Source of the DNA: Prolixibacteraceae bacterium
Lineage (GTDB): Bacteria; Bacteroidota; Bacteroidia; Bacteroidales; Prolixibacteraceae
Assembly: GCA_029975525.1 (NCBI GenBank)
Contig: JARKOX010000128.1
Location: forward strand, 1-64,000
Length of the DNA: 64,000 bases
Direction of reading: 5' to 3'
Part shown: positions 33,164 to 58,045 of the stretch, piece by piece
Layout: each line of letters opens with the position of its first letter
How positions within the stretch are numbered: the stretch's first letter is position 1
The notes under the pieces: model-generated
Told to the model about the DNA's origin: nothing
Databases searched by the model: none
The model's input: the letters and a program-made list of their open reading frames with translations, nothing else
Position numbers and translations under genes: made by a program

Positions 33164-33223
33164 ACGTATAGATTTTTTTTAGTAATTATCTATTTTTCAG
33201 TTTTTTGCAAGGATTGTTTTAAC

Positions 33224-35791: not shown

Positions 35792-35816
35792 AACTGATGG
35801 TTTAGTCGGTTGGTTT

Positions 35817-36473: not shown

Positions 36474-36483
36474 GTCCGGCGTA

Positions 36484-37473
36484 TTAAAATTTGTTTTCAT
36501 AGACCGCCACGCACAATGCGGCATAATCGCCAATCGAATCGCCCAGCTCGGCGGGTTTGATCTGACACACCTCCCGCGCTGCCGGAATCGCTTCCTGCCG
36601 GAGCACCTCTTCCACAACGGGTTGAAACAATTCCACATTCCGCGCATAAATACTGCCGATGACGATACATTCCGGGTTGAGGATATCGATCAGAACGGAG
36701 AGTCCCCTCCCAAGATATCCGGCTGAAATCCGGATAATTTCGAGGGCTGTCGAGTCGCCGGCACGGGCAGCCAGCGCCACGGCTTTGGCGTCAATTTCCC
36801 CGATTTTATCGGGTGAAGGGCAAAAATCAACCGGCTGGTTCTTTTGCCATTTTGCGGTTATCACCGACCGGGCGAGCTGGGCAATGCCGCCGCCGCTGCA
36901 AAAACCTTCGAACGAGCCGGCTTTTCCAAATCCGACCGGTCCGTCGGGGGCCAGCCGGATATGGCCCACTTCGCCGCCCAGGTCGTTGGTTCCGCTGTAG
37001 AGTTTTCCGCCCAGAATCAGTCCCGAGCCCATTCCGGTGCCGAAAGTGAGAAAGACCATGTTGCGGGTCCCTCTTCCGGCGCCCATCATCCACTCGGCCA
37101 GCGCGCAGGCGTTGGCGTCGTTCTGAAGCGCGGTTTCCACGCCATATTTTTGGCTGAAAATCTCCACAACCGGCACCCCGTCCCACCCCGGAAGGTTAGG
37201 CGGCGAATAGATCATCCCCCGGGCCGAATCGAGCGGTCCGCCACAACTGATGCCAATCCGCATCAGTTTGCTGTTGCCGAACTCTGCCAGCAGCCTGCCG
37301 ATATGCAGGTGAAATTCCGCCAGAATAGCCTGGTATCCCCTTTCAACACGGGTTTCAAAAAACACTTTTCTCCAGATGTGAAAGGACGCATCGCCAATTA
37401 CCACCGCACATTTGGTTCCGCCAATGTCCAGTCCAAGATATATTTCCCGGGGAAGCTCTTTTGCTTTGTTCAT
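36484..37473 (-). CDS. ROK-family sugar kinase lacking the usual zinc cysteines
   Basis: This 329-residue ASKHA-fold kinase has the ATP phosphate loop LGLDIGGTKCAVVIG, the catalytic Asp in LQNDANACALAEW, FGTGMGSGLILGGKLYSG, and GEVGHIRL with the conserved histidine. Where ROK proteins normally carry CxCGxxGCxE the sequence reads GFGKAGSFEGF, so the zinc cysteines are gone. It probably phosphorylates a hexose or N-acetylhexosamine at O6. I start at ATG 37473 because the upstream ATG at 37491 sits nearly on the operator palindrome. It is the first gene after lacI and overlaps nothing. Confidence 0.88.
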   Translation of the reverse strand: MNKAKELPREIYLGLDIGGTKCAVVIGDASFHIWRKVFFETRVERGYQAILAEFHLHIGRLLAEFGNSKLMRIGISCGGPLDSARGMIYSPPNLPGWDGVPVVEIFSQKYGVETALQNDANACALAEWMMGAGRGTRNMVFLTFGTGMGSGLILGGKLYSGTNDLGGEVGHIRLAPDGPVGFGKAGSFEGFCSGGGIAQLARSVITAKWQKNQPVDFCPSPDKIGEIDAKAVALAARAGDSTALEIIRISAGYLGRGLSVLIDILNPECIVIGSIYARNVELFQPVVEEVLRQEAIPAAREVCQIKPAELGDSIGDYAALCVAVYENKF

Positions 37474-37494
37474 ATTAGTTGGTTTATCCATTCA

Positions 37495-37508
37495 CTAAAT
37501 CGATTTAG
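37495..37508. promoter_or_regulatory. LacI-type operator, site 1 (upstream of the ROK gene)
   Basis: CTAAATCGATTTAG is a perfect 14-bp palindrome with a central CG, typical of LacI-family operators. It lies in the short gap between the lacI stop and the ROK start. Closely similar sites precede the DapA-type gene and the second susC. Confidence 0.7.
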
Positions 37509-37527
37509 CCTTGTGAGCAAAAAAAAA

Positions 37528-38559
37528 TTAAGCTCCGCACGATTTCCGCACGATGAACTCGGTTTTCAGTTTTATCTGCTGAAGTTTTGGTGCATTCTTG
37601 CGGGAAGGGTTGATTTCATTGAGCAGGACCTGAACCGCTTTTTTCCCGATTTCTGAAAGCGGCTGTCCGATAACGGTCACCGGGCTGACGCAAATTTTGT
37701 AGGCATCCACATTGTCGAAACTGACGACGGCCACATCCTCCGGAATCCGGAGCCCCAGCGCCGAAATACATTCAATTCCCATCACCCCGATTTTGCTGGT
37801 GGAAAAGAGAATGGCATCGGCTTTCCGGTCATTTTGGTCTCCGACCAGTTCGAGAATCGCCTTGTTGACATCGGTATTGTCGTGCGAAAAAGGTAAAATT
37901 TTGATCAGCTTTTCGTCGACCTGCAGCCCGTTATCGAGGAGGGCCTTTTGGTACCCCTCCGTACGCTCTTTCATGTTGACCAAGTCGAGGTTCAGCGTGA
38001 TATTGGCGATTTTTTTACGGCCCCGTGCAAGCAGATGGGTAGTGGCCCGGTAAGCGGCGTCCAGATTATCGACCACAATATAGCTGCACTCGATATCGGG
38101 AAAATAGCGATCGATCAGCACCACCGGGAGATGGGCCCGGAGGAGGGCGCGGATCTGCTCTTCGCTGTCGATCGTGGGCGAAATAATATACCCGTCCACC
38201 TGGCTCTGCTGCAGCATGGCAATCTGCTGTTTCGATTTTTCAGGGTTTTCATCAGAGCTGCAAAAGATGATCCGGTAACCGTAGCGCGCCGCTTCCTTCT
38301 CAATTTCGCGGCCCAGCTTCCCAAAAAACGGATTGGCAATATCGGCAATTATCAACCCGATGGTTTTGGTTTTGCCGGTACGCAACCCCTGGGCAATCCG
38401 GTTGGGCTGGTAATTCATCTCTTTGGCTGTTTCCAGCACTTTCCGACAAACTTCATCGCTGATCCGGAACTCTTTGCCCCGCCCGTTAAGAACAAACGAA
38501 ACCAGGGTTTTGGAAACCCCGAGCTGCTTCGCAATGTCATTAAGAGAGGTTTTTTTCAT
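37528..38559 (-). CDS. LacI-family transcriptional regulator
   Basis: This 343-residue regulator begins MKKTSLNDIAKQLGVSKTLVSFVLNGRG, the LacI helix-turn-helix, and continues with the hinge YQPNRIAQGLRTGKTKTIGLI and a periplasmic-binding-type sensor domain (IADIANPFFGKLGREIEKEA, VVSFDNVDAY). I use ATG 38559; the ORF-track start adds 26 residues not seen in the family. It precedes the ROK-SIS-GH38-MFS cluster on the same strand, and the palindrome at 37495 is the most likely operator. The inducer is presumably a sugar phosphate or sugar from that pathway. Confidence 0.93.
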   Translation of the reverse strand: MKKTSLNDIAKQLGVSKTLVSFVLNGRGKEFRISDEVCRKVLETAKEMNYQPNRIAQGLRTGKTKTIGLIIADIANPFFGKLGREIEKEAARYGYRIIFCSSDENPEKSKQQIAMLQQSQVDGYIISPTIDSEEQIRALLRAHLPVVLIDRYFPDIECSYIVVDNLDAAYRATTHLLARGRKKIANITLNLDLVNMKERTEGYQKALLDNGLQVDEKLIKILPFSHDNTDVNKAILELVGDQNDRKADAILFSTSKIGVMGIECISALGLRIPEDVAVVSFDNVDAYKICVSPVTVIGQPLSEIGKKAVQVLLNEINPSRKNAPKLQQIKLKTEFIVRKSCGA

Positions 38560-38858
38560 GTCTGTAGAACTGATTTTTTGTCTGGATCGATACATGGGTT
38601 TACCCAGCTTTTTCAAACAGGTTTCCATGTCATTCAAAATTAAGCGATCCGGCCGGGTTGCTTAAATAATAAATTGCCCTAAACTGATAACATTTTAACG
38701 GAAGTTTGCTTTGAATGCAACGTGATGAAATGGGGCATGCGTTTCACAACACCTGCTGACAGGTAAAAACCGCTATCCGACAGGATAAAAGTTTTTGACC
38801 GGCCTGCCTCGGAAAGGTTTAGAAAAGAGAAGAAAAAAAAGCTCGATTATCCTGGTGG

Positions 38859-39710
38859 TTACCTGAAATCTTTGCGGTAATCCGAAGGGGTTTTTCCCAT
38901 GATCACCTTAAAATAATGGTTAAAATTTGCGAGGTTGTTGTATCCGCACTCGTAACAAATCTGGGTGATCTGCTTGTCGGTTTCGGCCAGCAATTTGGCT
39001 GCAATCCCGATTCTGACGCTTTTCACGTAGTCCATGAAGGTTTGTTTGGTCTTCTTCTTAAAATAGCGGCAAAAGGAGCTGGGTTCCATGCAAACCAGCG
39101 ACGAGGCCTCACGCAGGTTAATTCCCTCCTGGATATTCTGAAATACGTACTCGTAAATTTTGTTGATCTGCTCGTAATCCTTGTCATACGAGTGGGGCAG
39201 CGAGGAGGGCAGCGCCAGGTATTCGCGGTCTTCAATCTGGATCAGGTAGCTGAATACTTTCAGCAGTTCGATGTACTGTTCCAGCCCTCTCAGGCTGACC
39301 ATTCTGCGGAGAATGTTGGCCGATTTTTCGGCCAGCGGCCCGTGAAAGAGGATGCCGCCGTCGGCGCTGTGCAGCAGGTCGGCAACCGGTTCCAGTTCGG
39401 GCATCTTAAAATAATCGGAAACAATCAGATTTTCGTAAAAGTGGGTTACAATACACTCCGGCTCCATCCCATCTTCAGTTTCGAGCACCTCCCAGCAGTG
39501 CATGATGTTTGGCCCCAGCAGCACCAGGTCGCCTTTGGTGTAACTCGAGATGTTGTTTCCCACAATACGACGGCCATATCCGGAAGTAATCAGGTTCAAT
39601 TCAAAATTTTTGTGTGAATGTACTTTGTCGGAATGAGGGTCCATCTTTAACCTTCGCGTGATAAACGAATGCTTTTGCGGCACAAAAATCTTTTCATAAA
39701 CGAACTCCAT
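38859..39710 (-). CDS. AraC-family regulator with N-terminal cupin
   Basis: This 283-residue protein has a cupin-like ligand domain (VHSHKNFELNLITSGYGRRIVG, about residues 30-100) and a C-terminal double helix-turn-helix at about 185-283. Diagnostic are LREASSLVCMEPSSFCRYFKKKTKQTFMDYVKSVRI and YECGYNNLANFNHYFKVIMGKTPSDYR. It is divergent from the DapA-type gene across 208 bp, so it is a likely activator of that operon. The ligand is probably a sugar or organic acid. Confidence 0.9.
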   Translation of the reverse strand: MEFVYEKIFVPQKHSFITRRLKMDPHSDKVHSHKNFELNLITSGYGRRIVGNNISSYTKGDLVLLGPNIMHCWEVLETEDGMEPECIVTHFYENLIVSDYFKMPELEPVADLLHSADGGILFHGPLAEKSANILRRMVSLRGLEQYIELLKVFSYLIQIEDREYLALPSSLPHSYDKDYEQINKIYEYVFQNIQEGINLREASSLVCMEPSSFCRYFKKKTKQTFMDYVKSVRIGIAAKLLAETDKQITQICYECGYNNLANFNHYFKVIMGKTPSDYRKDFR

Positions 39711-39855
39711 ACCTCTCCAGTTTAATCAGACAAAAATTTTAACCGAAAAATATAAATATATAAGCGAAATTCAAAGATCAAGTCAAATTTCAATGTAAAA
39801 CGAACAATATACAACAAAAAAGATGCGGTCTATTGATTTTTCTTTGTTGTACCCG

Positions 39856-39869
39856 TTAAATCGGTTTAG
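39856..39869. promoter_or_regulatory. LacI-type operator, site 2 (upstream of the DapA-type gene)
   Basis: TTAAATCGGTTTAG matches site 1 at 12 of 14 positions with the same central CG, 49 bp before the DapA-type ATG. It lies just after a CTTTG box that could be part of a -7 element. Confidence 0.65.
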
Positions 39870-39918
39870 CAAACCGGTTGAGAACGGCATAAACAGACAC
39901 TTATCAATCAAAAATAGT

Positions 39919-40833
39919 ATGAGAGCTTTATTTCACGGAATTATTCCACCAGTGGTTACTCCATTGCTCAGTAACGATGCACTTGATGAAGCGGGCCTCA
40001 GCAGGCTGATCGAACACATGCTTGCGGGCGGTGTTCACGGATTATTTCTGCTCGGCACGACCGGCGAGGCGACCAGTCTGAGTTACAAATTACGCGAGAA
40101 ATTTGTAAAGCTGGCCTGCAACCAGATCGGGAAAAGGGTACCGGTAATAGTAGGGATTACCGACACCTGCATTGAAGATTCGCTGAACATGGCCTCCTGC
40201 TACAAAGAGGCCGGCGCTGATGCCGTGGTTATTGCCCCCCCCTATTACATCCCCATTTCGCAGAGCGAAATGATGCAGTACCTGGAAGGCCTGGTACCGC
40301 AGTTGCCCCTCCCCTTTTTCCTTTACAACATGCCCGGCTACACCAAGCTGCACATGTCGGTTGAAACCGTCAACTTCGCCCGGGAGCTGGGGGCCCTCGG
40401 AATCAAAGACAGTTCGGGCGACCTGATGTATTTGTATACGCTGATTGATAAATTCAAAGACACTCCGGAATTTTCCATCTTCACGGGCACCGAGATCTTC
40501 ATTCCCGAGACCATTATGCACGGCGGCCACGGCGCGGTTGCCGGCGGCGCCAATATGTTCCCCCGCCTGTTTGTCGATTACTATGAAGCCGCCGTCCGTA
40601 AAGACTTCGAGCAGATCAGCCTGCTGCGCCAGATGGTGATGCAGATCTACAACACCGTTTACAATGTCGGCAAACACACGTCGAAGTACACCCTGGGCAC
40701 CAAGTGCGCCCTCTCGGTGATGGAAATCTGCAACGACTACGCCGCCCTGCCATTGCGCAAATTCGACGATGAAAAACGGGCCCGGATGCAACAATATATC
40801 CAGGAACTGAAAGAGAAATTGGTCTATATTTAA
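39919..40833 (+). CDS. DapA/NanA-superfamily lyase (2-keto acid aldolase type)
   Basis: This 304-residue class I aldolase has FLLGTTGEATSL (GTTGE phosphate/carboxylate loop), Tyr in FFLYNMPGY, and the Schiff-base lysine in ALGIKDSSGD. The family includes N-acetylneuraminate lyase, dihydrodipicolinate synthase and 2-keto-3-deoxygluconate aldolase. Specificity is not resolved by motifs I can see. I start at ATG 39919, which opens MRALFHGIIPPVVTPL; the ORF-track start adds 32 residues and includes the operator. Its neighbours are BNR exoproteins, which would suit a sialic-acid-like or 2-keto-3-deoxy acid substrate, but NanE is missing. Confidence 0.88.
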   Translation: MRALFHGIIPPVVTPLLSNDALDEAGLSRLIEHMLAGGVHGLFLLGTTGEATSLSYKLREKFVKLACNQIGKRVPVIVGITDTCIEDSLNMASCYKEAGADAVVIAPPYYIPISQSEMMQYLEGLVPQLPLPFFLYNMPGYTKLHMSVETVNFARELGALGIKDSSGDLMYLYTLIDKFKDTPEFSIFTGTEIFIPETIMHGGHGAVAGGANMFPRLFVDYYEAAVRKDFEQISLLRQMVMQIYNTVYNVGKHTSKYTLGTKCALSVMEICNDYAALPLRKFDDEKRARMQQYIQELKEKLVYI

Positions 40834-40847
40834 TGTTCTCCAACAAA

Positions 40848-40888
40848 AACCGGAACAGCCGGCACCACTTTCGGCTTTTGTTCCGGTT
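40848..40888 (+). terminator. Probable terminator after the DapA-type gene
   Basis: AACCGGAACA and TGTTCCGGTT pair with an inner GCCG/CGGC, 15 bp after the stop. The following ATTGCTATTTTG is only weakly T-rich, so termination may be partial. Confidence 0.5.
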
Positions 40889-41082
40889 ATTGCTATTTTG
40901 CTGACACCGGGAAATGTTTTTTCCGGCGCGTGACGGTCCAAAAGTCTTTTTTGCCGCAGCCAGCGAATTTTTTCGCAACTCCGGCTATCTTTAAGGCTGA
41001 GGAGTGCCATGAAAAGCTTCAGGCAGGAATTTCCCTGCCTGCTTCCTTCAACAAAATATTCAATTAACGATCAACTAATTCT

Positions 41083-42168
41083 ATGAAAGCATTTACCACC
41101 CTTCTGCTGATAACCCTTTCAGCCATCCTTTTGCAGGCCCAACCCTACCGGGGCGACCAGGCTATTGTAAAATCCGAATTCATTTACCGATCCGAAGATG
41201 TCAAATTTCCAAGTTGCCATGCTTCAACAATTGCCGAAACCCAGGAGGGACTCCTGGCTGCCTGGTTTGGAGGAACTGCCGAAAAGGATCCGGACGTGGG
41301 CATTTGGATCAGCCGGTTCTCAAACGGAAAATGGTCGGTTCCCACGGAAGTAGCCAACGGCGTTCAAAATGAAAGTTTAAGGTATCCGACCTGGAATCCG
41401 GTGCTTTTTAACGCCGGCAAAGAGATCATCCTGTTCTACAAAGTGGGGCCCAACTGTTCCGACTGGTGGGGCGAATACATTACCTCGTCCGACAACGGAC
41501 ACACCTGGAGCAAGCCGGTGCGCCTGCCCGACGATATCTGGGGCCCTATCAAAAACAAACCGGTGTTGCTGCCCAACGGCGAACTGCTCTGCCCGTCGAG
41601 TACCGAAAAAACAGGCTGGCAGGTTCACCTGGAAAGCACCGCCGACTGGGGCAAAACATGGAAAAGAACCCCTTCGATAAATGACGGGAAAGAGGTCGGG
41701 GCCATCCAGCCTACCGTCCTGATACATTCGGGCAACAAACTCCAGATTTTATGCCGGAGCACCAATAAAATGATCCTCTCGTCCTGGTCCAGCGACCTGG
41801 GCAAAACCTGGAGCAAACTGGAGCCGATCCAGCTCCCCAATCCCAACTCCGGCATCGACGGTGTTGCCCTGCAGGATGGCCGTCATGCCTTGGTTTACAA
41901 CCACGTCAAACCAGCCGAAAAATGGGGCGACCGTAACATTTTGAACCTGGCCCTTTCCAGCAACGGAAAAAAGTGGAAAGCTGCCCTCCTGCTTGAAAAT
42001 GACCCGGATGCCGACACCGAATACTCCTACCCGGCGATTATCCAGGCCAGCAACGGGCTGCTCCACATCACCTACACCTGGAACCGGAAGCTGATCAAAC
42101 ACGTGGTGGTGGATCCCTCCAAACTGACGACCAGGCCGATGGTGAAAGGTTCGTGGCCGACGGAATAG
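41083..42168 (+). CDS. Exported BNR-repeat (sialidase-like) protein
   Basis: This 361-residue protein has a signal peptide (TLLLITLSAILLQAQ) and a six-bladed BNR/sialidase-like propeller with Asp-boxes SSDNGHTWSKP, TADWGKTWKRT and SSDLGKTWSKL. The N-terminal strand HASTIAETQEGLLAAWFGGTAEKDPDVGIWISR is typical of the BNR_2 (PF13088) group. A sialidase FRIP motif is not visible, so true sialidase activity should not be assumed; other glycan lyases and hydrolases share this fold. It follows the DapA-type gene by 249 bp. Confidence 0.85.
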   Translation: MKAFTTLLLITLSAILLQAQPYRGDQAIVKSEFIYRSEDVKFPSCHASTIAETQEGLLAAWFGGTAEKDPDVGIWISRFSNGKWSVPTEVANGVQNESLRYPTWNPVLFNAGKEIILFYKVGPNCSDWWGEYITSSDNGHTWSKPVRLPDDIWGPIKNKPVLLPNGELLCPSSTEKTGWQVHLESTADWGKTWKRTPSINDGKEVGAIQPTVLIHSGNKLQILCRSTNKMILSSWSSDLGKTWSKLEPIQLPNPNSGIDGVALQDGRHALVYNHVKPAEKWGDRNILNLALSSNGKKWKAALLLENDPDADTEYSYPAIIQASNGLLHITYTWNRKLIKHVVVDPSKLTTRPMVKGSWPTE

Positions 42169-42237
42169 TCCGCGCTTTTTTTGGGACCGGTTAGCTGCGA
42201 GGACCGGATGACTGTTTTGACTTTTAATTCCAAAAAA

Positions 42238-44211
42238 ATGATCAGAAAAAAAATATTCCGGATACCCCTCCTGATAGCGGCTGGAATAATGATATCCGCC
42301 CTGGGGGTTTCCCTCCGGGCCAATGAACCCCTCAGACTGAAGTACAACCATCCCGGGCTCCTGACCGACCTGGGGGTTGGTTTGTGGGCCTGGCCGTTCC
42401 CGGTCGATTATGACCACGACGGCGATTACGATCTGGTGGTGAACTGTCCGGATGTCCCCTACAACGGCATCTGGTATTTCGAAAATTCAGGGGGAAAGGC
42501 GAACCCGGTTTTTAAAGCGCCGGTCTGGCTGGCTCCTGCCGTGAAAAACATTCAGTTTTCGGACGTGAATGGCAAACTGGTGGTTATGACGCCCGGCGTA
42601 GTTTACAGCGATTTTCTGAAGTTGTTTGCCCAATCGCCCGACACAGTGTTCCATCCCGCTTTTTACAAAGAGCTGAGTGAAAAATCGAGGTTCAATTTAT
42701 GGCGGATGGTGGATTACGAAGGCGACGGCGACCAGGATTTTATTGTGGCCATCGACGACTGGTCGGATTATGGCTGGGACAATGCCTTTGACGAAAAGGG
42801 AACCTGGAAAAACGGTCCGATTCATGGGTACATCTACCTCATTGAACAAACCGCTCCGAACGAATATGCACCTCCCCGGCACCTCAAAGCCGGCGGCAAA
42901 AAAATCGACCTCTACGGAGTTTCCGGTGCCAACTTCTTCGATTTCGACAACGACGGCGACCTGGATATCATCATGGGAGAATTTGTCGACCGGATCACCT
43001 GGTTCGAAAACATCGGGAGCCGGACCCAACCAGTTTATGCCGAAGGCAGGTTTTTGAAAGTGGAAGGCAAAACCTTCCGGGTCGACCTGGAAATGTTTAT
43101 TTCCAATGCGGTGGACTGGGATCACGACGGTTATATCGACCTGATTATTGGCGAAGAGGATGGCCGGGTTTTCTGGTTAAAAAACAGCGGAAAGAAAACC
43201 CCGGACGGACCAGTCTTTGAAAAGCCGGTCTATTTTCAGCAGGAAGCCGGCGACCTGAAATTTGGCGCATTGGTTACCCCGTACAGTATTGATTGGGATA
43301 ACGACGGCGACGAAGATCTGATCTGTGGAAATACGGCCGGCTACATCGGTTTTATTGAAAACCTCGACGGAGGGAATCCGCCCCAATGGGCCAATCCGGT
43401 TTACCTCAAAGCCGAAGGAAAAACCATCCGCATCATGGCCGGAGAGAACGGCTCCATTCAGGGACCGGCCGAAAAAAAATGGGGCTACACTACCCTGTCG
43501 GTCGTTGACTGGAACTGTGACGGCTTGCCGGATATTGTTGCCAACTCCATTTGGGGAAAAATCGAATGGTATGAAAACAAGGGAACCCGGTCGAAACCCC
43601 GGCTGGCGGCCGCCCAACCCGTTGAAGTGGAATGGTCCGGCGTCAATCCCAAACCCGCCTGGAACTGGTGGAACCCGCCGGGAAAAAACCTCGTGACCCT
43701 TTGGCGCACCACTCCGCTGGTCTACGACTGGAACCAGGATGGCCTGCCCGACCTGGTGATGCCTGACCACGAAGGCTACCTGGCGTTCTGGGAACGGGTC
43801 CGGGAAAACAAAACGCTGAAACTGCTGCCCGGCAAACGGATTTTTACGGCCGAAGAGCACACCACTCCGACCGACCAGTTTACCAACGACGAGGAAGGCC
43901 GGTTACGCCTCAGCACCAAAACCGCCGGTGGATCGGGCCGGAGAAATTACTGCATTGCCGACTGGGACGGTGATGGTCTGCCCGATCTGCTGGTAAACAG
44001 TGTAAACATCTCCTTCCTGAAAAACAAAGGAGTCCGGAACGGAAAAGTTGTCCTAGAAAACAAAGGCCCGCTGCTAACCAAAAAAATGGCCGGCCATTCC
44101 ACCTCGCCTACGGTGGTTGACTGGGACCGGAACGGAATTCCCGACCTGCTCTTCGGAGCCGAAGACGGGCATCTTTATTATTACCCCAACGACCAGTTTA
44201 AGAAGAAGTAA
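42238..44211 (+). CDS. FG-GAP/VCBS-repeat exported protein
   Basis: After a signal peptide (RIPLLIAAGIMISALGV) this 657-residue protein has nine D-x-D-x-D-G calcium-loop repeats, such as DYDHDGDYDLVV, DFDNDGDLDIIMGE, DWDNDGDEDLICGN, DWNQDGLPDLVMPD and DWDGDGLPDLLVN. They should build one or more integrin-like beta-propellers. No catalytic motif is visible. I choose ATG 42238, not the TTG at 42181. It lies between two BNR genes with gaps of about 70 bp, so it probably binds or presents the same polymer. Confidence 0.85.
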   Translation: MIRKKIFRIPLLIAAGIMISALGVSLRANEPLRLKYNHPGLLTDLGVGLWAWPFPVDYDHDGDYDLVVNCPDVPYNGIWYFENSGGKANPVFKAPVWLAPAVKNIQFSDVNGKLVVMTPGVVYSDFLKLFAQSPDTVFHPAFYKELSEKSRFNLWRMVDYEGDGDQDFIVAIDDWSDYGWDNAFDEKGTWKNGPIHGYIYLIEQTAPNEYAPPRHLKAGGKKIDLYGVSGANFFDFDNDGDLDIIMGEFVDRITWFENIGSRTQPVYAEGRFLKVEGKTFRVDLEMFISNAVDWDHDGYIDLIIGEEDGRVFWLKNSGKKTPDGPVFEKPVYFQQEAGDLKFGALVTPYSIDWDNDGDEDLICGNTAGYIGFIENLDGGNPPQWANPVYLKAEGKTIRIMAGENGSIQGPAEKKWGYTTLSVVDWNCDGLPDIVANSIWGKIEWYENKGTRSKPRLAAAQPVEVEWSGVNPKPAWNWWNPPGKNLVTLWRTTPLVYDWNQDGLPDLVMPDHEGYLAFWERVRENKTLKLLPGKRIFTAEEHTTPTDQFTNDEEGRLRLSTKTAGGSGRRNYCIADWDGDGLPDLLVNSVNISFLKNKGVRNGKVVLENKGPLLTKKMAGHSTSPTVVDWDRNGIPDLLFGAEDGHLYYYPNDQFKKK

Positions 44212-44284
44212 AGAGGACGCTTCCGTCAAAATCACGGAACAGCTCCGTCAACAAACAGTGATTTGACCAGTAAAAATCAACCAT

Positions 44285-46426
44285 ATGCAACACCATTTCA
44301 GAAATAACACCGGGCAGCTTCTCCGCCTTAAAACGGCCGGAATAGCTGTCCTGCTGCTTTTGACCGGCTCCGCAGCTTTCGGACAAAAGAAAAAAGCGGC
44401 AACAACCAGCCCAAAAGCCACTTTTCAGGCTGAATATATTTTTCCTTTCCAGACGCAGCATGTGCATAGCAGTTCGGTGGTCGAACTGCCCAACGGCGAC
44501 TTGCTGTGCTGCTGGTTCCAGGGGTCGGGCGAACGAAGCGCCAATGATGTGGCCATCAAAGGCGCCCGGCTGAAAAAAGGGGAAACCCGGTGGAGCGAAC
44601 CTTTTGTTTTGGCCGACACCCCCGACAATCCCGACTGCAACCCGGTGCTGTTCCTCGACAACAGCAACCGGCTGCATCTCACCTGGATTGTGGTGATGGC
44701 CAACCAATGGGAATCGTCGCTGCTGAAAACACGCATTTCGACCGATTACCTGGGGGCCGGCGCTCCGAAGTGGAACTGGCAGGATGTCATCCTGCTGAAA
44801 CCCGGTGAAGAGTTTGCCCGAAGTATCCCGGAACAGTTTAAAAAACTCCCGACGCCGGAGCTGGCCTGGGGCGGTTATGCTCCCAAATACGAAGCGCAAA
44901 TTGCCGCTGCAGCCAAAGATCCGGTCAAACGTGAAACGGGCTGGATGGGACGCATCAAACCGACGATTTTGTCGGGCGGACGAATCCTGTTGCCGCTCTA
45001 TTCCGACGGCTACAACCTCTCGCTGGTCGCCATTTCCGACGACAATGCCGAAACCTGGAAACCCAGTCTGCCCATTGTGGGCCGCGGAAATATCCAGCCC
45101 GCCATCCTGCGCAAAAAAGATGGCAGCCTGGTTGCCTACATGCGCGACAACGGCGATGCCCCGGGGCGCATCCAGAAAAGTATTTCTACCGACAACGGCT
45201 ACACCTGGACACCGTGCGAAAAAACCACGCTCCCCAATCCGGGCGCCAGCGTGGATGCCCTGGCGCTGAACGATGGCCGCTGGGTTATGATTTACAACGA
45301 CCTGGAAGAGGGCCGTTACCGGCTGGCCGTCAGCCTTTCGGAAGATGAAGGCGCCACCTGGAAATACACCCGGTATCTCGAAAACAACCGGGAAGGCGGT
45401 TTTTCATATCCATCCATTATTCAGTCACGGGACGGAAAAATTCACGCCACCTACTCTTATCACGTTAAAAATGAGAAAACCATCAAACAGGTCAGTTTTC
45501 CGGCCGACTGGGTCATGGAACAGCCCGCCGCTACGACCAATGCCGAAAAACTGGGATTTCCGAAGGGGAAAAAGGTCATCCTGCTCCACATGGACGACCT
45601 GGGGATGTGCGACGAGGCTAACCAATCGGGAGAGTTTTACATGCAGAACGGCTTTGTCAACTCCGGCGCGGTGATGATGCCCTGTCCATATGCCAAACCG
45701 TTTATCGACTGGGCCAAAAAGAACCCGAAAGCCGATGTCGGCGTGCACCTCACCCTCACCAGCGAATGGAAAACCTACCGCTGGCCCTCGGTTACCAGTC
45801 CCGCCCAAGTTCCGGGTTTAATTGACCCCGAAGGGAAGCTCTGGCGCGATGTTCCGGAGGTGGTGGCCCACGCCACGGCCGCCGAGGTGGAAACCGAAAT
45901 CCGTGCCCAGATTGATCAGATGATCGCCCTGGGTCACCGTCCCACGCATATGGACACCCACATGGGAACCCTCTACGGATCGCCCGAATATGTCAAAGTA
46001 TTCCTGAAAGTGGCCGAAGAATATGGGATACCCGCCAACGCCATCGATTTGTCGGACCCCAAAGTGGCAAACAAATTCAAAGCGATGGGATATCCCATTT
46101 CTGAAGCGATGACCGCCCTGATGGACCGCTATTCGCTGCCCAAACTCGACGATTTCGGCAGTGTTCCGAACGGAAAAACCTATGCCGAGAAGAAGGAAAA
46201 CTTCATCAAACTGGTCAATTCTCTTGAAAACGGACTGACCGAAATCATCTTCCACCCGTCGGTCGAGACGGAAAACCTCAAAAGTATCACCGGGTCATGG
46301 CAGCAGCGGGTTTGGGAGGCCCAAATGTTTTCCGATCCCGAAATCCGGAAGTTTTTGGCCGGCCAGAATATTATCCTGACCGACTGGAAAGATATTATGA
46401 ACCGCTTTAACCAACAAAAAAGATAG
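44285..46426 (+). CDS. BNR (sialidase-like) propeller fused to a ChbG/YdjC-like deacetylase
   Basis: This single 713-residue frame holds two enzymes. Residues about 45-410 form a BNR propeller with Asp-boxes ISDDNAETWKP, STDNGYTWTP and SEDEGATWKYT. Residues about 425-713 form a YdjC/ChbG carbohydrate deacetylase domain with the metal pair in LLHMDDLGMCDEAN, GVHLTLTSEW, THMDTHMGTLY and EIIFHPSVE. A signal peptide (VLLLLTGSAAFGQ) exports it. ChbG removes acetyl from chitooligosaccharides, so the fusion may deacetylate and cut an acetylated sugar. The first half is paralogous to the gene at 41083. Confidence 0.88.
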   Translation: MQHHFRNNTGQLLRLKTAGIAVLLLLTGSAAFGQKKKAATTSPKATFQAEYIFPFQTQHVHSSSVVELPNGDLLCCWFQGSGERSANDVAIKGARLKKGETRWSEPFVLADTPDNPDCNPVLFLDNSNRLHLTWIVVMANQWESSLLKTRISTDYLGAGAPKWNWQDVILLKPGEEFARSIPEQFKKLPTPELAWGGYAPKYEAQIAAAAKDPVKRETGWMGRIKPTILSGGRILLPLYSDGYNLSLVAISDDNAETWKPSLPIVGRGNIQPAILRKKDGSLVAYMRDNGDAPGRIQKSISTDNGYTWTPCEKTTLPNPGASVDALALNDGRWVMIYNDLEEGRYRLAVSLSEDEGATWKYTRYLENNREGGFSYPSIIQSRDGKIHATYSYHVKNEKTIKQVSFPADWVMEQPAATTNAEKLGFPKGKKVILLHMDDLGMCDEANQSGEFYMQNGFVNSGAVMMPCPYAKPFIDWAKKNPKADVGVHLTLTSEWKTYRWPSVTSPAQVPGLIDPEGKLWRDVPEVVAHATAAEVETEIRAQIDQMIALGHRPTHMDTHMGTLYGSPEYVKVFLKVAEEYGIPANAIDLSDPKVANKFKAMGYPISEAMTALMDRYSLPKLDDFGSVPNGKTYAEKKENFIKLVNSLENGLTEIIFHPSVETENLKSITGSWQQRVWEAQMFSDPEIRKFLAGQNIILTDWKDIMNRFNQQKR

Positions 46427-46759
46427 AATACGGAGCCTGACACCGTAAAAAAATTCCGGGAGGCACAGGTACCCTGCCACTATCGGGCAGCAAGGTGCGG
46501 TTGACAGCTTTCAGTTGAAAAACGTCCGGTTTTCCGGAGGGAAAAGATGAAGAAAAAACCGCAGCACCACCATCCCGGCCCAACACAAAGTCGATTCTTC
46601 TGACAAAAACCGATCAACTTACTTTGCCAGATCAGAAAAGAGGCTGCCTGAAAATCGGGCAGCCTCAGTTTTTGGGTTTTGTCCAGACTGAAATGAAGGC
46701 AATAGAGCAGATTTGCAGAACAAATCGTCAACCTGCCGCACCGGCGGCAAATAGCCTTC
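46427..46759. other. Intergenic region between converging genes
   Basis: This 333-bp region contains a bidirectional hairpin at 46640-46666. Nothing else coding or structural is recognised. Confidence 0.5.
46640..46671. terminator. Bidirectional terminator between the BNR-ChbG and metallophosphoesterase genes
   Basis: GAGGCTGCC and GGCAGCCTC pair over nine bases with a nine-base loop. AGTTTTTGGG follows on the plus strand and TTTTCTGATC on the minus strand. Confidence 0.8.
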
Positions 46760-48547: not shown

Positions 48548-48564
48548 GTTGCCAATAGTTGTTA

Positions 48565-48608
48565 AAAAAACAGGCGCACCTGCAGACCGTAGATCTGTCG
48601 GGTGCGCC
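48565..48608 (-). terminator. Internal terminator between the propeller protein and metallophosphoesterase genes
   Basis: On the minus strand GGCGCACC and GGTGCGCC form the stem with an inner CAGA/TCTG, followed by TGTTTTTTTAAC. Confidence 0.8.
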
Positions 48609-48654
48609 CTACCTAATCACCTAAAACTACCTATGATGTCGAAGCGTTGTTGTT

Positions 48655-50883: not shown

Positions 50884-50944
50884 TTCTATTGATTTTTGTT
50901 GATTTATAGTATTTTTCAACCCGTTTAAGGCTGATCGTCTTGTT

Positions 50945-52474
50945 TTACAATTTAGCTGAAATTCTGAAAACCCTGGCAGAAGTCCAGGTTTGGCCAAACA
51001 GGTCAGTGGTCCTGACCTTCAGGGTGTAGGTTCCGGGAAGCAGGTTTTGGGGCAGCTCCCCGCGCCAGATATGTCTTGAAATGCTGGGTTCGTCCATCAG
51101 GTAGCCCAACACCTCTTCCAGCACTTTTCCGTTCACTTTTTCCTGCAGAAACGGGTTCAGTGCATGCATCCGGGCACATTCCGGATCGGGCACTTCCGCC
51201 GGCTCCATTTTCAGCCACGTCCCCTCCCCGCTCAGCTGCATCTCCACCACCGAACGCGGTGAGCCGGCAAACACATTGACCAGCACCTGACGCGACTGGC
51301 GGTCGGAAAGGACCACATCGTCGGCAAGGTAAATGTTCATCTGGTAATTTTCGGGACGGCGGGCGGCCTTAAACCGGACCCGGTAGGAGTTTCCGCTGAA
51401 ATGGATAACCGAATACCCGTTGGGCGTTCCGTCGTTCATGGTGGCATGCGGAATGTTTACCTCGTCGAGTGCGCCGCACCACCAGCTGCCGCACACCGCT
51501 CCGTTGACCAGGTGATGATGGTCGCCGGCTCCCTTCCAGCCCATTGCGGGCCCCACAAACAGGTTGATCTGTTCATGGGCGTGGCCGGAGACCGAAAAGG
51601 TATGCTCCCGGTTGCTGATCAGCGCCAGCAGCTGGTCGCGGTTTTCGCACACCACCACCGGCACGTGCATCATCAAAACCACCAGTTTGCCGGCGGGAAC
51701 AAATGCGAGATAGTTTTTAACGAAGTTAAGCTGCCGTTCGGAGAAGCGGGAGGTGTAACGTCCGTTGGGGGTAAAGTGGATGTTGTTGAGATCGATAAAG
51801 ACCACCTCGCCGTATTCAAAAGCATAGGTCGATGGCCCGTAAACCTGCTCGTAGGTAGCTGTTTTCTCTCCGTCAGTTGGGGCGTCCCGGTCGTAATCGT
51901 GATTTCCGAAGGTGTTGTACCACGGAATCCCGATCTGGGCAATTCCCTGGTTAATGGCCTGAAAAAGGGCGGGGCCGTCGGCTGTGATATCGCCCAGCGA
52001 AACGCCAAAGAGGGCATCGGTCCCGATCAGCTCTTCCACCACATCGTGGTTGATGTAGTTCACCTCTTTTAATCCGCGGGCTTGCGGATCGCCAAAAAAA
52101 AGGGCCGTAAACTCCCTGTTTTCGGCAGTGGCAATGAGCGGAAAGTTGATTCCGTGCTCCGGCGTTTCCCCTTTCTGCCGGAAAAAATGCTGCGGAATCA
52201 TCTCCCGGTTGACCGGAACCCGGTAACCAGCCGGCTTGATGACAAAAAGCGCTGAACTTCCGGAATCTTCCAGCGCCCATTTTCCATCGGCTCCGGAACG
52301 GACCACCACCTCGCCGTTTGACACGCAAACGCCGCCAACACCGGGCTCGCCGGCATCTTTGATCCCGTTTTGGTTGATGTCGTGGAAAACATATCCCCCA
52401 ACATTTTTTCCGGCAGAAAAAACAACCGGGCCCCCAAACAGCATCAACAGGAAGAAAACACGGAGCGATTTCAT
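50945..52474 (-). CDS. Exported calcineurin-like phosphoesterase with flanking beta domains
   Basis: This 509-residue protein has a signal peptide, an N-terminal SpaA/SdrD-like beta domain (YVFHDINQNGIKDAGEPGVGG, about residues 20-110) and a metallophosphoesterase core: LFFGDPQARG, SLGDITADG, TFGNHDYDRD, LMMHVPVVV and VSGHAHEQIN. A C-terminal beta domain follows (about 330-509, ISRHIWRGELPQNLLPGTY). The first motif has Gln where the usual GDxH has His. The architecture fits the MetallophosN/C group. It follows susD2 across a hairpin terminator. Confidence 0.88.
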   Translation of the reverse strand: MKSLRVFFLLMLFGGPVVFSAGKNVGGYVFHDINQNGIKDAGEPGVGGVCVSNGEVVVRSGADGKWALEDSGSSALFVIKPAGYRVPVNREMIPQHFFRQKGETPEHGINFPLIATAENREFTALFFGDPQARGLKEVNYINHDVVEELIGTDALFGVSLGDITADGPALFQAINQGIAQIGIPWYNTFGNHDYDRDAPTDGEKTATYEQVYGPSTYAFEYGEVVFIDLNNIHFTPNGRYTSRFSERQLNFVKNYLAFVPAGKLVVLMMHVPVVVCENRDQLLALISNREHTFSVSGHAHEQINLFVGPAMGWKGAGDHHHLVNGAVCGSWWCGALDEVNIPHATMNDGTPNGYSVIHFSGNSYRVRFKAARRPENYQMNIYLADDVVLSDRQSRQVLVNVFAGSPRSVVEMQLSGEGTWLKMEPAEVPDPECARMHALNPFLQEKVNGKVLEEVLGYLMDEPSISRHIWRGELPQNLLPGTYTLKVRTTDLFGQTWTSARVFRISAKL

Positions 52475-52508
52475 GTGAGATAATATTACAGAAATTTTTA
52501 ACTGGAAG

Positions 52509-52544
52509 AAAAGGGTGCTGCATCAAAAGTTACCGCACCCTTTT
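52509..52544 (-). terminator. Attenuating terminator between susD2 and the phosphoesterase gene
   Basis: AAAAGGGTGC and GCACCCTTTT pair perfectly around a 16-base loop in the gap after susD2, so susC2-susD2 should be transcribed more than the genes that follow. Confidence 0.8.
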
Positions 52545-52583
52545 CAAATTTTCTGAAAGCTATCTTCTTTCAGAAGGATTGTA

Positions 52584-54272
52584 TTACTGCAAGAGCCAGA
52601 ATTTTGACCAGGAGCTGTCTTTGCCGTCGGTGGCGGTAAAGGGTGTTTCCACCAGTCGTTCAATCGCTACCTTGTAATTGGCGTTGTTGCGGCCTTTTTC
52701 ATTGGGGCCATATTCAAACCGCAGGGGCATCGCGTCGCGTAACGCTTTGGGGCCAATGGCCAGGGTCGGGAAACCGGTTCTTCTCCAATCGCACCACGCT
52801 TCGTGGGCAACGGTCCAGTTGGCGATCCATTTCTGGGTGATGATTTGGGCCAGCGTGCCATCGAAAGCAACCCCCGGCTGGGCAATGTAGGCTGCATACG
52901 CGCTGCCAACTCCCCAGGTATCCATAGAAGCTTTAACTCCTTTTTCATACCACTCTTTTTGTGTGCCACCCACCGACCATCCTTTGCGGGAAGCTTCGGC
53001 CATGATGAAACAGACTTCGGCATAAGAGATCATGCGGGCTTTCAGAAGCGTTCCTTTGGCAGCTTTGTAAATATCGTCGAGCGCTGAATTGTGGACATTG
53101 GGACCTCCCTGAACCGGGTTCGGGTTGAGGTTGTAGCTCGATCCGTCGCCCGTGCTTGAGGCAATGGGCATACCGACAAAGCGGGCAGTGTCTACCAGTG
53201 TTTTTCCGGCTTTTACATCTTCCACCCAGGTGCTGGGGTTGTAGATGACCATATTTTTGGCGGCCAGATATTCCGGGCGCAGGTAACGGACATTATTCAC
53301 GACAATATCATTTTCGGGATATTGGGTGGAAACTTTGATTTGGGTTCTGGCTTTGTTGAACCAAACCTCGAGCCGCGGGTCGTTGAATTTCACCAGCACA
53401 TCGCGGAAACCGGCACACAGCTGAATACGGTCGAAACCACTCATGCTGACATCCTGCACGGTATTGGCCGGCCAGGAGTCGTTTTTGGTGGTACCGATGT
53501 AGGACATCGTTGCATCGTCTTCGATTCCGGTAAAAATCGGATACTGGGCCGGATTGGAAGTAATCTCCTGGATTCCGGCTTTGGCAAAATCAGGCAGTTT
53601 CCCCGACAATCTCATATAATAACGCAGCGCCAGTGAGTTGGCCAGTTTGCGCCATTTCAGCGGATTGCCGCCATACATCACGTCGGCCGACTGGCTGATC
53701 TCTTTGTAGTCGCCCACCGGTTTGGAGAGTAAGGTGTTGGCATTTTTCAACTCCTGAAGAATTCCTTTGTAGATGCTCTCCTGGGTGTCAAATACCGGGA
53801 AGAGATCTTCCTGTCCGCCATTGGGGGCATTGAGTGCGGCCGTGTAAGGTGCATCGCCCCAGGAGTCGGCAATGTAGGCAAACTGAAAAGCCCTGATGAC
53901 GGTTGCCACTCCCTGGTGAAACTCCATTTTTTCGGCTACCGCACGATTGTAAAGATGTTTGGCATCTCTCAGCACACTGTAGTTGGAAGCCCAGTCGCGC
54001 TCGGTATTCCAATCCAGCTTGTTAAGGCCGTTTCCCCAGCCGCTCTTCTGCACATACTGCATCACCCCGGCCACATCTCCCTGGTAATTGTTTTCGAGAT
54101 ATTCGGTCATGGTAGCCGTGATAATAGTCGGAATCAACAGGTTCGGATTGACGGTTGACGGGTCAACGCCATTGGGGTTCACGTTGAATTCCGTAAGCTT
54201 ATCCTGGCAGGAGGTGAAGGCAATCACGGTAAGCACCAGGAATATTTTAGCTAATGTTTTCATTCTTTTCAT
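52584..54272 (-). CDS. SusD/RagB-family glycan-binding lipoprotein (second pair)
   Basis: This 562-residue lipoprotein (LVLTVIAFTSCQDKLTEFNVNPNG) has the SusD features FAYIADSWGDAPYTAAL, WRKLANSLALRYYMRL, CFIMAEASRKG and QKWIANWTVAHEAWCDWRRTGFP. It is related to SusD1 at 23.7 kb in both order and motif (VAGVMQYVQ). It binds ligand at the surface over SusC2, whose gene lies 16 bp upstream. A hairpin follows its stop. Confidence 0.94.
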   Translation of the reverse strand: MKRMKTLAKIFLVLTVIAFTSCQDKLTEFNVNPNGVDPSTVNPNLLIPTIITATMTEYLENNYQGDVAGVMQYVQKSGWGNGLNKLDWNTERDWASNYSVLRDAKHLYNRAVAEKMEFHQGVATVIRAFQFAYIADSWGDAPYTAALNAPNGGQEDLFPVFDTQESIYKGILQELKNANTLLSKPVGDYKEISQSADVMYGGNPLKWRKLANSLALRYYMRLSGKLPDFAKAGIQEITSNPAQYPIFTGIEDDATMSYIGTTKNDSWPANTVQDVSMSGFDRIQLCAGFRDVLVKFNDPRLEVWFNKARTQIKVSTQYPENDIVVNNVRYLRPEYLAAKNMVIYNPSTWVEDVKAGKTLVDTARFVGMPIASSTGDGSSYNLNPNPVQGGPNVHNSALDDIYKAAKGTLLKARMISYAEVCFIMAEASRKGWSVGGTQKEWYEKGVKASMDTWGVGSAYAAYIAQPGVAFDGTLAQIITQKWIANWTVAHEAWCDWRRTGFPTLAIGPKALRDAMPLRFEYGPNEKGRNNANYKVAIERLVETPFTATDGKDSSWSKFWLLQ

Positions 54273-54288
54273 ATTTTACGATTCAACA

Positions 54289-57200
54289 TTAAAAGTTAAA
54301 ATTCAATTTAAAGCCAACGGGGATGGTCCACGGTGAGACGTTGTACCTTTCAATTCCCTGTTTAAACTGAATCCCACTTTTTTGAACACCGCTGGATGCC
54401 TGGAATGCAGTTTCCGGATCGATGCCAATGCCGGCCTTTGTCCAGAGGATCAGGTTACGGCTGTAAACAGAAATCGAAGCATTCTTGAAGCCGATTGATT
54501 TTATGGTAGGCAGCTGATAGGAGATTGAGATTTCTCGCAATTTGATGAAGTCGGCATCAAAAGTTGCCGTCCGGGTAAAATCCCAACCGTAGAAATCCTG
54601 GTATCTGATCAGCGGGGTTCCGTTCTTTTTACCCAGGTTTTCACCCAGATGTTCGGCAACCATGATAAAATTACCATTGTCGTCGTAGTATCCTTCAACG
54701 CCGGGCATAAATACGCCATCATTTAAGGTGATGCCCCCTTCGGTGTGCGGGAAGCCTCCGGTCGCAGCCGTCGGACCACCGACCACCACGTAGAATTCAC
54801 CTCCGGGCAACAAATATTTGTCGGCATTGTCTTTGAGGAATTTGGCAATTTCTGCTCCACTCATATTGTTGACTTTCAACGTTCTGTTGATCCAGCGTTC
54901 GGAGTGCAGGTCGGATTCGCCGTAGCGGAAAGTCTGTGAAACAAACTGTCCTCCCACCCGCCAGTCGAGGCTGGCATTCAGCGTCCATTTTTTATAGGAA
55001 AGCCCGGTTTGAACCCCGATGGTAAAGTCCGGGTTAAAGTTTCCGATGACGTTGGGTTTTCCTTCGTTGATTTTGGTTTGCCACCCTTTTACGTCGTTCC
55101 AGCCTTCGTCATCCAGAATTGGCCAGCCAAAGTACGGAGAGTTCGGATCTTCCACCCGCACCATTTCGGCATCTACAATCTGGCCGATTTCGTCGCCCAC
55201 CCGGGTAACGGCGCCGCCTTTTGCATCGGTCCACAAATCGATATAGTTGAATCCTTCTGCCAGCTCTTCAATCCGGGTTCTGTTGCGCGAGAAGTTTACA
55301 TTTACATCCCAGTTCCATTTATTGTTGCTGACCGGGGTACCTCCCACCGCCAACTCAATCCCTTTGCTGGAGATCAAACCGGCATTGATCTGTTTGGAGT
55401 TATACCCGGTTGAGGGCGGAAGACCAATATTCAAAATCTGGTTTTCATTTTCAGCGGCATAGTATGTCCCTTCAAACCTGAGGCGACTGTTGAACAGCGC
55501 CAGGTCGGCACCTACCTCCCACGAAGTTTTGATCTCCGGCTTCAAATTCGGCAACAACATATTTCCCGAAGTGGTGAGGCGGATTTCATTCCCCCAGGCT
55601 CCGGCGTCGCCCATCAGCGGAAGCAGTTTGTACGGATCGGTATCGTTACCTACCATTGCCCAGCCTCCCCGCAATTTAGCCAGAGAAATTCTTGAATCCA
55701 TCTCGAACAGGTTGTTCAGCAGCATGCTTAAAGAAGCGGAGGGATAGAAGTAGGAACGGTTTTCGGCCGGAAGTGTACTCGACCAGTCGTTACGTGCCGT
55801 CAGATCAAGATAGATGGCATCTTTCCAGCCCAGTGAGGCCAGTCCGTACAAGCTGTAAATTGCTTTTTGGTATGAACTGGAGCCGTACTGAATATTTGAC
55901 GGCGCAATATTTCCGAGCGTGTAAACACCGGGAACCGTCAAACCGGCGCCGGGTTTGCTCTGGGCGCTGTTGTTGTCGCCATACTGGTACATGTAGTTTC
56001 CACCAGCCGAAGCATTGATATTGAAATCCTTGAGTGATTTTTTATACGCCAGCAGGAAGTCTGCATTCTGCTCCCTGCGGTAGAGGTTTACCAAACCATA
56101 TACTCCATTGGCATCGCCGGTGTAACTTTTGGCAATTTTGGTTTCCCGCTTTTCACTAAACTGGTCGTGGTTGTACCGCAACATCAGCGACAAATCCGAC
56201 GTCAGGTCGATATCAAGTTTGGCGTTTCCATACACCCTGTCGCGACGAAAACTGTTGTTTACCTCGTAGGCCAGGAAATACGGGTTGTCAATCCGGTTGC
56301 TGATTTTGTAGGTTCCGTCGGGTTTCAGGTTCAGATTATACGGGCTGTTCTGCTGAATGCCGACCTTTCCGGGTTCCCAGATGGTTTTCAGGTCATTAAT
56401 ATCAATATGGGAATTGATATTGTACAAAGCCTGCAACGGGTTGGCGCCACGTTCAGAGGTTGCAGGGCGGTTATCTGCGCCTGAATTGTTAAAATTAAAG
56501 CTTGAACTGAAAACGACCCCTTTGGCAATTTTGTATTCCGAATTAACCCCGATGCTGTTTTTGTGCAAGTCGCTGTTGGGAATAATACCTCGGTTGAGCA
56601 TGTTTTCATACGAGACCCGGTAATTGAGTTTTTCGTTGGCATCGGTCAGGGCGAAACCGTTTGTTGAGGTAACCCCGGTCCGGAAAAAATCTTTGTAATT
56701 ATCGGGGTGAGCAACCAGCGGCCGGGCTGCAATCTCTCCGGCGGCATTAAAATAGGGCCACTGGTAGGCCATCATACCTTTGTCGAGTTCCGGGCCAACC
56801 CAGTAAGAGTTTCCGGCCGGTACTTCGTAATAAGGCAGGCCATTGGTCGGACGGTTATCCTGTGTAAATGGCCGCTGTCCGTTGGCAAAACGGGTGTGCT
56901 TTTCGAGAAATTTGTACGGAGTTTCAACCACCGTGTTTGAAGTGACCGATACGCCAAGTCCTTTGCTCTTTTTTCCTGATTTGGTGGTAATCAGCACCAC
57001 GCCGTTCCCTGCCCGGGAACCGTATAACGCAGCGGCGCTGGGACCTTTCAGCACAGAAACACTTTCGATGTTTTCGGCGCTGAGGTCGGAGATGGCATTT
57101 CCATAGTCGGCCAGGTTCCCATTCCCAATCTGGGTAATGTTGTTCAAGGTGTTGTTCATCGGTACGCCATCAATCACAAACAGCGGCTGGTTGTCGCTGG

Positions 57201-57720
57201 TCAATGACGATGCTCCGCGAATAACCATACTTACCGAGGAGCCGGTTCCGCCGGTCGAACTGATGGCAACCCCGGCAACTTTACCGGCCAAAGAGTTCAA
57301 CACGTTTTCCTGGGCAACTTTCTGCAACGCTTCTCCGTTAACTTCGCCAACCGAGTAACCGAGCGATTTTTTCTCCCTCGAAATTCCCAAGGCGGTCACA
57401 ACCACCTCGTCCACCCCGATGGTGGCACTTTTCAGGATGACATCAACCACTGTTCTTCCGCCAACGGCAATCTCCTGCGGGACCATCCCGACAAAAGAGT
57501 AAACCAATACCGATTGCGCATCCTGCACGGTAATGGTGTATTTACCGTCAATATCGGTAATTGTACCACTACTCGTACCTTTTACTACAATAGAAACTCC
57601 CGGGAGCAGCTCACCGCTTTCACTCTTGACCTCCCCGCTTACTTTTTGCTGCGCAAACGAAGAAAGAGTAAAAATGGCAAACAGTCCTGATAATAGCATT
57701 TGCAAGATTCTCTTTTTCAT
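54289..57720 (-). CDS. SusC/RagA-family TonB-linked outer membrane transporter (second pair)
   Basis: This 1143-residue transporter has a signal peptide (MLLSGLFAIFTLSSFAQQ), a carboxypeptidase-regulatory domain (GEVKSESGELLPGVSIVVKGTS), a plug with DEVVVTALGISREKKSLGYSVGEV and LKGPSAAALYGSRAGNGVVLITT, and a barrel ending VGFKLNFNF. Its leader (57721-58045) carries LacI-type site 3 about 164 bp upstream. It should import the ligand that the phosphoesterases and glycosidases of the locus process. Confidence 0.95.
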   Translation of the reverse strand: MKKRILQMLLSGLFAIFTLSSFAQQKVSGEVKSESGELLPGVSIVVKGTSSGTITDIDGKYTITVQDAQSVLVYSFVGMVPQEIAVGGRTVVDVILKSATIGVDEVVVTALGISREKKSLGYSVGEVNGEALQKVAQENVLNSLAGKVAGVAISSTGGTGSSVSMVIRGASSLTSDNQPLFVIDGVPMNNTLNNITQIGNGNLADYGNAISDLSAENIESVSVLKGPSAAALYGSRAGNGVVLITTKSGKKSKGLGVSVTSNTVVETPYKFLEKHTRFANGQRPFTQDNRPTNGLPYYEVPAGNSYWVGPELDKGMMAYQWPYFNAAGEIAARPLVAHPDNYKDFFRTGVTSTNGFALTDANEKLNYRVSYENMLNRGIIPNSDLHKNSIGVNSEYKIAKGVVFSSSFNFNNSGADNRPATSERGANPLQALYNINSHIDINDLKTIWEPGKVGIQQNSPYNLNLKPDGTYKISNRIDNPYFLAYEVNNSFRRDRVYGNAKLDIDLTSDLSLMLRYNHDQFSEKRETKIAKSYTGDANGVYGLVNLYRREQNADFLLAYKKSLKDFNINASAGGNYMYQYGDNNSAQSKPGAGLTVPGVYTLGNIAPSNIQYGSSSYQKAIYSLYGLASLGWKDAIYLDLTARNDWSSTLPAENRSYFYPSASLSMLLNNLFEMDSRISLAKLRGGWAMVGNDTDPYKLLPLMGDAGAWGNEIRLTTSGNMLLPNLKPEIKTSWEVGADLALFNSRLRFEGTYYAAENENQILNIGLPPSTGYNSKQINAGLISSKGIELAVGGTPVSNNKWNWDVNVNFSRNRTRIEELAEGFNYIDLWTDAKGGAVTRVGDEIGQIVDAEMVRVEDPNSPYFGWPILDDEGWNDVKGWQTKINEGKPNVIGNFNPDFTIGVQTGLSYKKWTLNASLDWRVGGQFVSQTFRYGESDLHSERWINRTLKVNNMSGAEIAKFLKDNADKYLLPGGEFYVVVGGPTAATGGFPHTEGGITLNDGVFMPGVEGYYDDNGNFIMVAEHLGENLGKKNGTPLIRYQDFYGWDFTRTATFDADFIKLREISISYQLPTIKSIGFKNASISVYSRNLILWTKAGIGIDPETAFQASSGVQKSGIQFKQGIERYNVSPWTIPVGFKLNFNF

Positions 57721-58045
57721 AAACTAAATAGTTGGTTATTTAATAAAGCTTCTTCTTATCCGGCAAATCCTTCCCTGAAAACACTTTAAGAATTATTCAC
57801 CTTTACAAATATGCTTGGTATATGCCACTAAAATTTATGGAATCTTACTCTCATTGCATTAAATATTAACAGCCACCGAAATACTAAATCGATCCAGCAC
57901 AAAATAACTGTCAATATTTAATCACAATAGAATAACAAAAAGATAATGATTGGGGGGATTTTTTAACGCATTAACAGGCAAACCGCAAAAAAAGTTCAGG
58001 TGTTTGGGGGCTGAACACACTTTTTCCGAAAAAACCGGAACCCCT
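57721..58045. other. susC2 promoter and leader region
   Basis: This 325-bp A+T-rich gap separates the PAP-type gene from susC2. It contains LacI-type site 3 and an ATTGCATTA box also present before susC1. No small gene is recognised. Confidence 0.55.
57884..57897. promoter_or_regulatory. LacI-type operator, site 3 (upstream of susC2)
   Basis: CTAAATCGATCCAG matches site 1 at 12 of 14 positions. On the minus strand it follows a TTATTTTG box by two bases, so bound repressor would cover the start of transcription if that box is the -7. Confidence 0.6.

Follow-up and report, generated by a model that had tools for sequence, protein, structure and literature searches.

Three 14-bp near-palindromes with a central CG in a glycan-utilisation locus of an uncultured Prolixibacteraceae bacterium raise the question of whether a single LacI-type regulator governs all of the genes that they precede. 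To address it we analysed a window of 64,000 nt of contig JARKOX010000128.1 together with the whole 4.06-Mb genome, for which the statements below are based on pattern and model searches. The 14-mers that a preliminary description had read as the sites of one regulon are all present (Table 1). Its figure of 12/14 identities to site 1 is right for both site 2 and site 3; these two agree with each other at 10/14 positions, and only site 1 is a perfect palindrome, sites 2 and 3 being imperfect.

Table 1 Predicted regulatory sites, promoter elements and genes of the locus (window coordinates).
Feature	Coordinates	Strand	Likely start codon	Remarks
37-bp element before susC1	28713..28749	-		weakest of the three
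Rest of ROK cluster	30019..36473	-		SIS isomerase, GH38, MFS transporter, PfkB/HAD
ROK-family kinase gene	36484..37474	-	37474	first after site 1; start codon placed from relatives
Site 1, CTAAATCGATTTAG	37495..37508	.		predicted ROK-operon operator, 21 nt before likely ROK start codon
lacI	37528..38559	-	38559	LacI-family regulator: N-terminal HTH and sugar-binding domain
-7-like element of lacI, TAATTTTG	38635..38642	-		operator-free
AraC-family regulator gene	38859..39710	-		divergent from dapA
37-bp element before dapA	39782..39818	+		probable AraC-type activator site; predicted binder
-7-like element of dapA, TTTCTTTG	39839..39846	+		match to Bacteroidota consensus; start site predicted
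Site 2, TTAAATCGGTTTAG	39856..39869	.		50-63 nt before dapA start codon
dapA-type gene	39919..40833	+	39919	DHDPS/N-acetylneuraminate lyase superfamily
Hairpin after dapA	40844..40892	+		likely transcript end; -23.5 kcal/mol, z -3.4
susC2	54289..57720	-	57720	
37-bp element before susC2	57834..57870	-		
Site 3, CTAAATCGATCCAG	57884..57897	.		predicted operator, 164-177 nt before susC2 start codon

The degenerate motif YTAAATCGRTYYAG occurs without mismatch three times in the genome, each time at one of sites 1–3, a count that is partly circular since the motif was derived from these sites themselves. With up to two mismatches the seed palindrome was found at eight places, four of them in the window. 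The fourth match in the window, GTAAATCGATTTGG at 26958, lies inside the susC1 coding sequence, the four places outside the window are all coding and the other near-matches retrieved in the genome searches lie in long open frames; sites 1–3 are therefore the sole non-coding places of the seed palindrome. At up to three mismatches the window gave 41 matches against 42.3 expected by chance, and these were set aside. We also ran a matrix trained solely on ROK operators of other genomes over the window and 60 simulated windows. The position 37495 ranked first with 26.0 bits and 39856 second with 21.5 bits, values that none of the 60 simulated windows reached, while 57884 ranked fourth with 12.7 bits (0.2 expected per 64 kb), below the coding match at 26958. 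Site 3 is the worst motif match of the three.

The product of lacI scores 36.3 bits against Pfam LacI (cut-off 27) and 106.6 bits against Peripla_BP_1 (cut-off 22.2), with the LacI HTH at the N-terminus followed by the periplasmic-binding-protein-like domain, as in LacI-family regulators. We fetched 80 relatives of this protein, 18 of which, from Prolixibacteraceae and other Bacteroidia assemblies, share 71–78% identity with it (L014–L031). The site 1 palindrome is present in 17 of these 18 close loci. Twelve have it directly between the two genes, lacI and ROK. L018 and L021, in which inserted DNA sets these genes apart, have a single copy, before ROK; in L017 and L024 both positions carry a copy; and in L016, whose contig gave no ROK match, it follows lacI. 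L019 contains neither ROK nor the site. Among more distant LacI orthologs, seven (G035, G036, G040, G051, G108, G109 and G110) show an operator variant at the same place and two (G042 and G057) show none at two mismatches; overall, the site persists in the majority of orthologous loci, with LacI identities as low as 59%.

Across 24 aligned promoters, that of the window included, the operator carries 1.77 bits per column compared to 0.48 in the 30 nt downstream, and its consensus in the relatives, CTAAANCGNTTTAR, is an even palindrome with central CG. In 140 family genomes CTAAAHCGDTTTAG accompanies the close LacI, being found in 19 of the 20 with a LacI at ≥71% identity versus 14 of the 120 others (Fisher p 1e-13). 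Second palindromes in G083, G088, G092 and G095, which fall within the frame of a YHYH protein or between seryl-tRNA synthetase and potassium-transporter genes, were judged to be chance, and a palindrome-like sequence that recurs early in the SIS gene of some relatives is accounted for by the codons for LL(N/K)RYS. Site 1 is hence a well-supported candidate for the LacI-type operator of the ROK operon, whose co-transcription is suggested by gene orientation and conserved gene order.

The position of site 1 suggests how such an operator would work. The operator is immediately preceded by a TAYTTT(T/A)G box in 18 of 23 relatives, and this box matches the Bacteroidota -7 consensus TAHHTTTG, from which start sites lie 4–5 nt downstream (PMC6847099). 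Because the box abuts the operator, the ROK start site would fall inside it. In the window the -7 box is degenerate at site 1, reading tcacaagg; 9 nt upstream of the site there is instead a run rich in T with a final G. Upstream of lacI itself no palindrome with up to two mismatches was found in this genome, and among the 18 lacI orthologs a single match, CG-less and with two mismatches, precedes lacI (in L028). Autoregulation was rejected because the operator is missing before lacI; the gene is probably not autoregulated and would be transcribed from its own operator-free promoter.

At susC2 the palindrome is conserved as well. Seven relatives carry a palindrome with one mismatch in the inner 12 bp before their susC2 orthologs (G008, G010, G017, G021, G022, G086 and G092), with its 5' edge 173–198 bp before the start codon, compared to 177 bp in the window. 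It is absent upstream of susC2 in G083, G088, G090 and G035, though LacI is present there. Site 3, which lies about 82–96 bp upstream of the predicted susC2 transcription start, is on this conservation a well-supported candidate LacI-type operator.

The preliminary description missed a second shared element, of 37 bp, that is common to the AraC–dapA regions of relatives and stands before dapA, susC1 and susC2. A matrix built from the relatives' dapA copies alone gave 37.8 bits at dapA, 25.9 at susC2 and 24.2 at susC1, the only window positions to exceed 20 bits (next best 5.8). Among 15 simulated windows, one attained 22.7 bits, so the susC1 element by itself is weak evidence. Genome-wide, a model trained on the relatives' dapA and susC2 copies (R1) returned susC2 (E 2e-6), dapA (2.7e-5) and susC1 (0.013) as its top three, followed by a match at 2.4. 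Downstream of the element a TTTG begins, 25 nt away at dapA and susC1 and, across eight genomes, 24–26 nt away at susC2. Ten relatives have both the element and the AraC gene and six congeners have neither, a co-occurrence that is partly expected as the AraC gene adjoins dapA. The element thus adjoins an AraC gene, co-occurs with it and lies just upstream of a promoter, as an AraC-type activator site would, and its most likely binder is the AraC-family protein encoded beside dapA. A repeat inside it, looked for as half-sites about 21 bp apart, was not obvious. The element links dapA, susC1 and susC2 at least as well as the palindrome does. In G036 and G040 it is found before a BNR gene instead (L206 6754–6790, L209 15552–15588).

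A regular spacing connects the two kinds of site at susC2. Palindrome and element are exactly 13 bp apart in four genomes; in the other four the distance is 33 bp, with the first half of the element repeated once more, as a 20-bp unit, between the two, so that all 8 susC2 promoters having both sites show a spacing of 13 or 33 bp; in the window it is exactly 13 bp. A second susC in G092 shows a spacing of 33 bp and an element on contig 275 of G017 a spacing of 13 bp. The sequence of the gap shows little conservation (0.83 bits per column versus 1.72 in the susC2 operator). Invariant spacing over such a gap would fit contact between two proteins, as in CytR–CRP anti-activation. Because the operator is locked at a fixed distance from the AraC-type site at one promoter, the cluster probably answers to two regulators, not one. 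We further propose, tentatively and at somewhat less than even odds, a composite switch in which the two proteins touch on the susC2 DNA at a helically fixed distance and LacI toggles the local AraC-type activator off or on, thereby controlling an outer-membrane glycan importer as a CRP-free counterpart of CytR.

The sign of this effect could also be the opposite one, with LacI helping the AraC-type activator at susC2 by co-activation or cooperative binding; a site located upstream of the activator element rather than over the promoter, at an invariant distance, would suit this arrangement. We regard such help as doubtful, given that the geometry at the ROK operon is of the repressor type, that one regulator acting on import and catabolism of the same sugar is expected to have one sign, and that most LacI-family regulators bind DNA without ligand (PMC4052901). 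Anti-activation by contact with the AraC-type protein, similar to that of CytR and CRP, is thus the most likely mode of LacI action at susC2.

Site 2 follows immediately downstream of the dapA -7-like element, at about +6 to +19 from the predicted transcription start, and its exact 14-mer is the ROK operator of three other genomes (G108, G109 and G040). It is not conserved in about two dozen other AraC–dapA intergenic regions, the nearest being a two-mismatch palindrome elsewhere in the G042 region. Site 2 could therefore be a chance match, with the AraC-type protein alone controlling dapA, and consistent with this, TAAAHCGDTTTA has four copies in the genome, no excess over its reversed control (six). 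This explanation is unlikely: given how rare the sequence is in 4 Mb, chance would hardly place a copy both 2.4 kb away from site 1 and no more than 25 nt past a -7-like box, and the use of the same 14-mer at ROK elsewhere also argues against it. As for the remaining TAAAHCGDTTTA copies in G008, G010, G017 and G022, most are coding and no two of the genes downstream of the intergenic ones are alike. A further CG-centred palindrome, AAACCGGTT, at 39870–39882 directly after site 2 and with its centre 13 bp downstream, is possibly a second weak operator.

We retain site 2 as a probable operator of dapA, at best a lineage-specific one because it is not conserved at other dapA promoters. Comparison with orthologous loci thus upholds the proposed local regulon of LacI-type operators at ROK and susC2, by conservation, and does not extend it to dapA in other lineages. 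The proposal that site 2 also joins the BNR/ChbG genes is not supported: control of the BNR genes from this site is doubtful because of the stable hairpin directly after the dapA stop codon, and 249 nt separate dapA from BNR.

Which protein reads the palindromes cannot be named from the motif alone, because its close orthologs also stand next to different LacI-family genes in relatives (L099, L103, L118, L120 and L123). That our LacI controls the ROK operon only, the susC2 and dapA palindromes being bound by a different LacI-family protein whose motif is similar, or by no protein at all, would accord with these CG-centred neighbours, with the five further LacI-family genes of the genome and with the relatives that have this LacI and lack a site before susC2, but is quite improbable, as the recognition helices of the alignable paralogs are unlike that of the lacI product, the palindromes beside two of the paralogs have different arms (TTGCAATCGATTGCAT and CCGCAAACGTTTGCGG), and the susC2 and dapA sites lie in the same cluster as lacI, with lacI and susC2 also on one contig in G008 and G017. 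The six same-genus genomes searched (G134–G139) gave no close ortholog of LacI, dapA or AraC, and the locus hence looks either gained in this species or lost in these congeners.

From the computed site positions, conservation, spacing and genome rarity we infer the binding protein, the sign of its effect, the start sites and the ligand as follows. The palindromes would be operators of the LacI-family protein encoded at 37528–38559. With the operator overlapping or directly following the predicted start of the ROK operon, LacI bound at site 1 would block RNA polymerase and leave the DNA when its ligand, a sugar or sugar phosphate, binds; in this genome only, LacI at site 2 would block dapA likewise at its start site. 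The AraC-type protein would activate dapA, susC2 and susC1. To this whole model, in which LacI represses the ROK operon and here also dapA and affects susC2 by way of the AraC-type activator, we assign a probability of about 0.7.

The genes of the cluster at 28902–46426 include a GmhA-like SIS gene, an HldE-like PfkB gene fused to a HAD domain, GH38, the N-acetylneuraminate-lyase-type dapA and sialidase-like BNR genes. With all of these assignments below curated cut-offs, the cluster might act on glycans containing heptose or 2-keto-3-deoxy acids. The gene at 28902–30011 belongs to the GSU2086 family (NCBIfam 332 bits, cut-off 250), which has no named function, and in several relatives keeps its place beside the PfkB/HAD gene.

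Local regulons in which a LacI-family protein controls sugar genes are already known (PMC4052901), although few have been worked out in Bacteroidota; about 1–2% of the LacI regulons in that collection are from Bacteroides. The present prediction draws on many relatives and assigns two regulators, with their targets, to a single glycan-utilisation locus. Like the collected regulons, the one predicted here has an even palindrome with central CG, few target operons adjoining the regulator gene, and carbohydrate genes as targets. It differs from them in that no operator precedes lacI, whereas 72% of the regulators in the collection are autoregulated, and in that site 3 lies outside the range of -140 to -30 in which most of their sites fall. 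KdgR, UxaR, UxmR and UxuR of Bacteroides thetaiotaomicron, assigned to uronate pathways (PMC3878776), are likewise LacI-family regulators of monosaccharide pathways in Bacteroidota, but none is listed there with a ROK/GH38 operon. For the fixed LacI/AraC arrangement we found no description in the open-licence papers searched; it would be the new part if contact were demonstrated, and susC2 offers a compact promoter where contact between LacI-type and AraC-type proteins can be tested directly. Its closest parallel is deoP2 of Escherichia coli, where the LacI-family protein CytR acts with CRP (PMC3454398). In both cases a LacI-family site adjoins an activator site, and the distances at given promoters are conserved across genomes. 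The window LacI is not a CytR ortholog (NCBIfam CytR 165 bits, cut-off 436), its predicted partner is a local AraC-type protein rather than CRP, and, in contrast to CytR, its operator is a strong palindrome.
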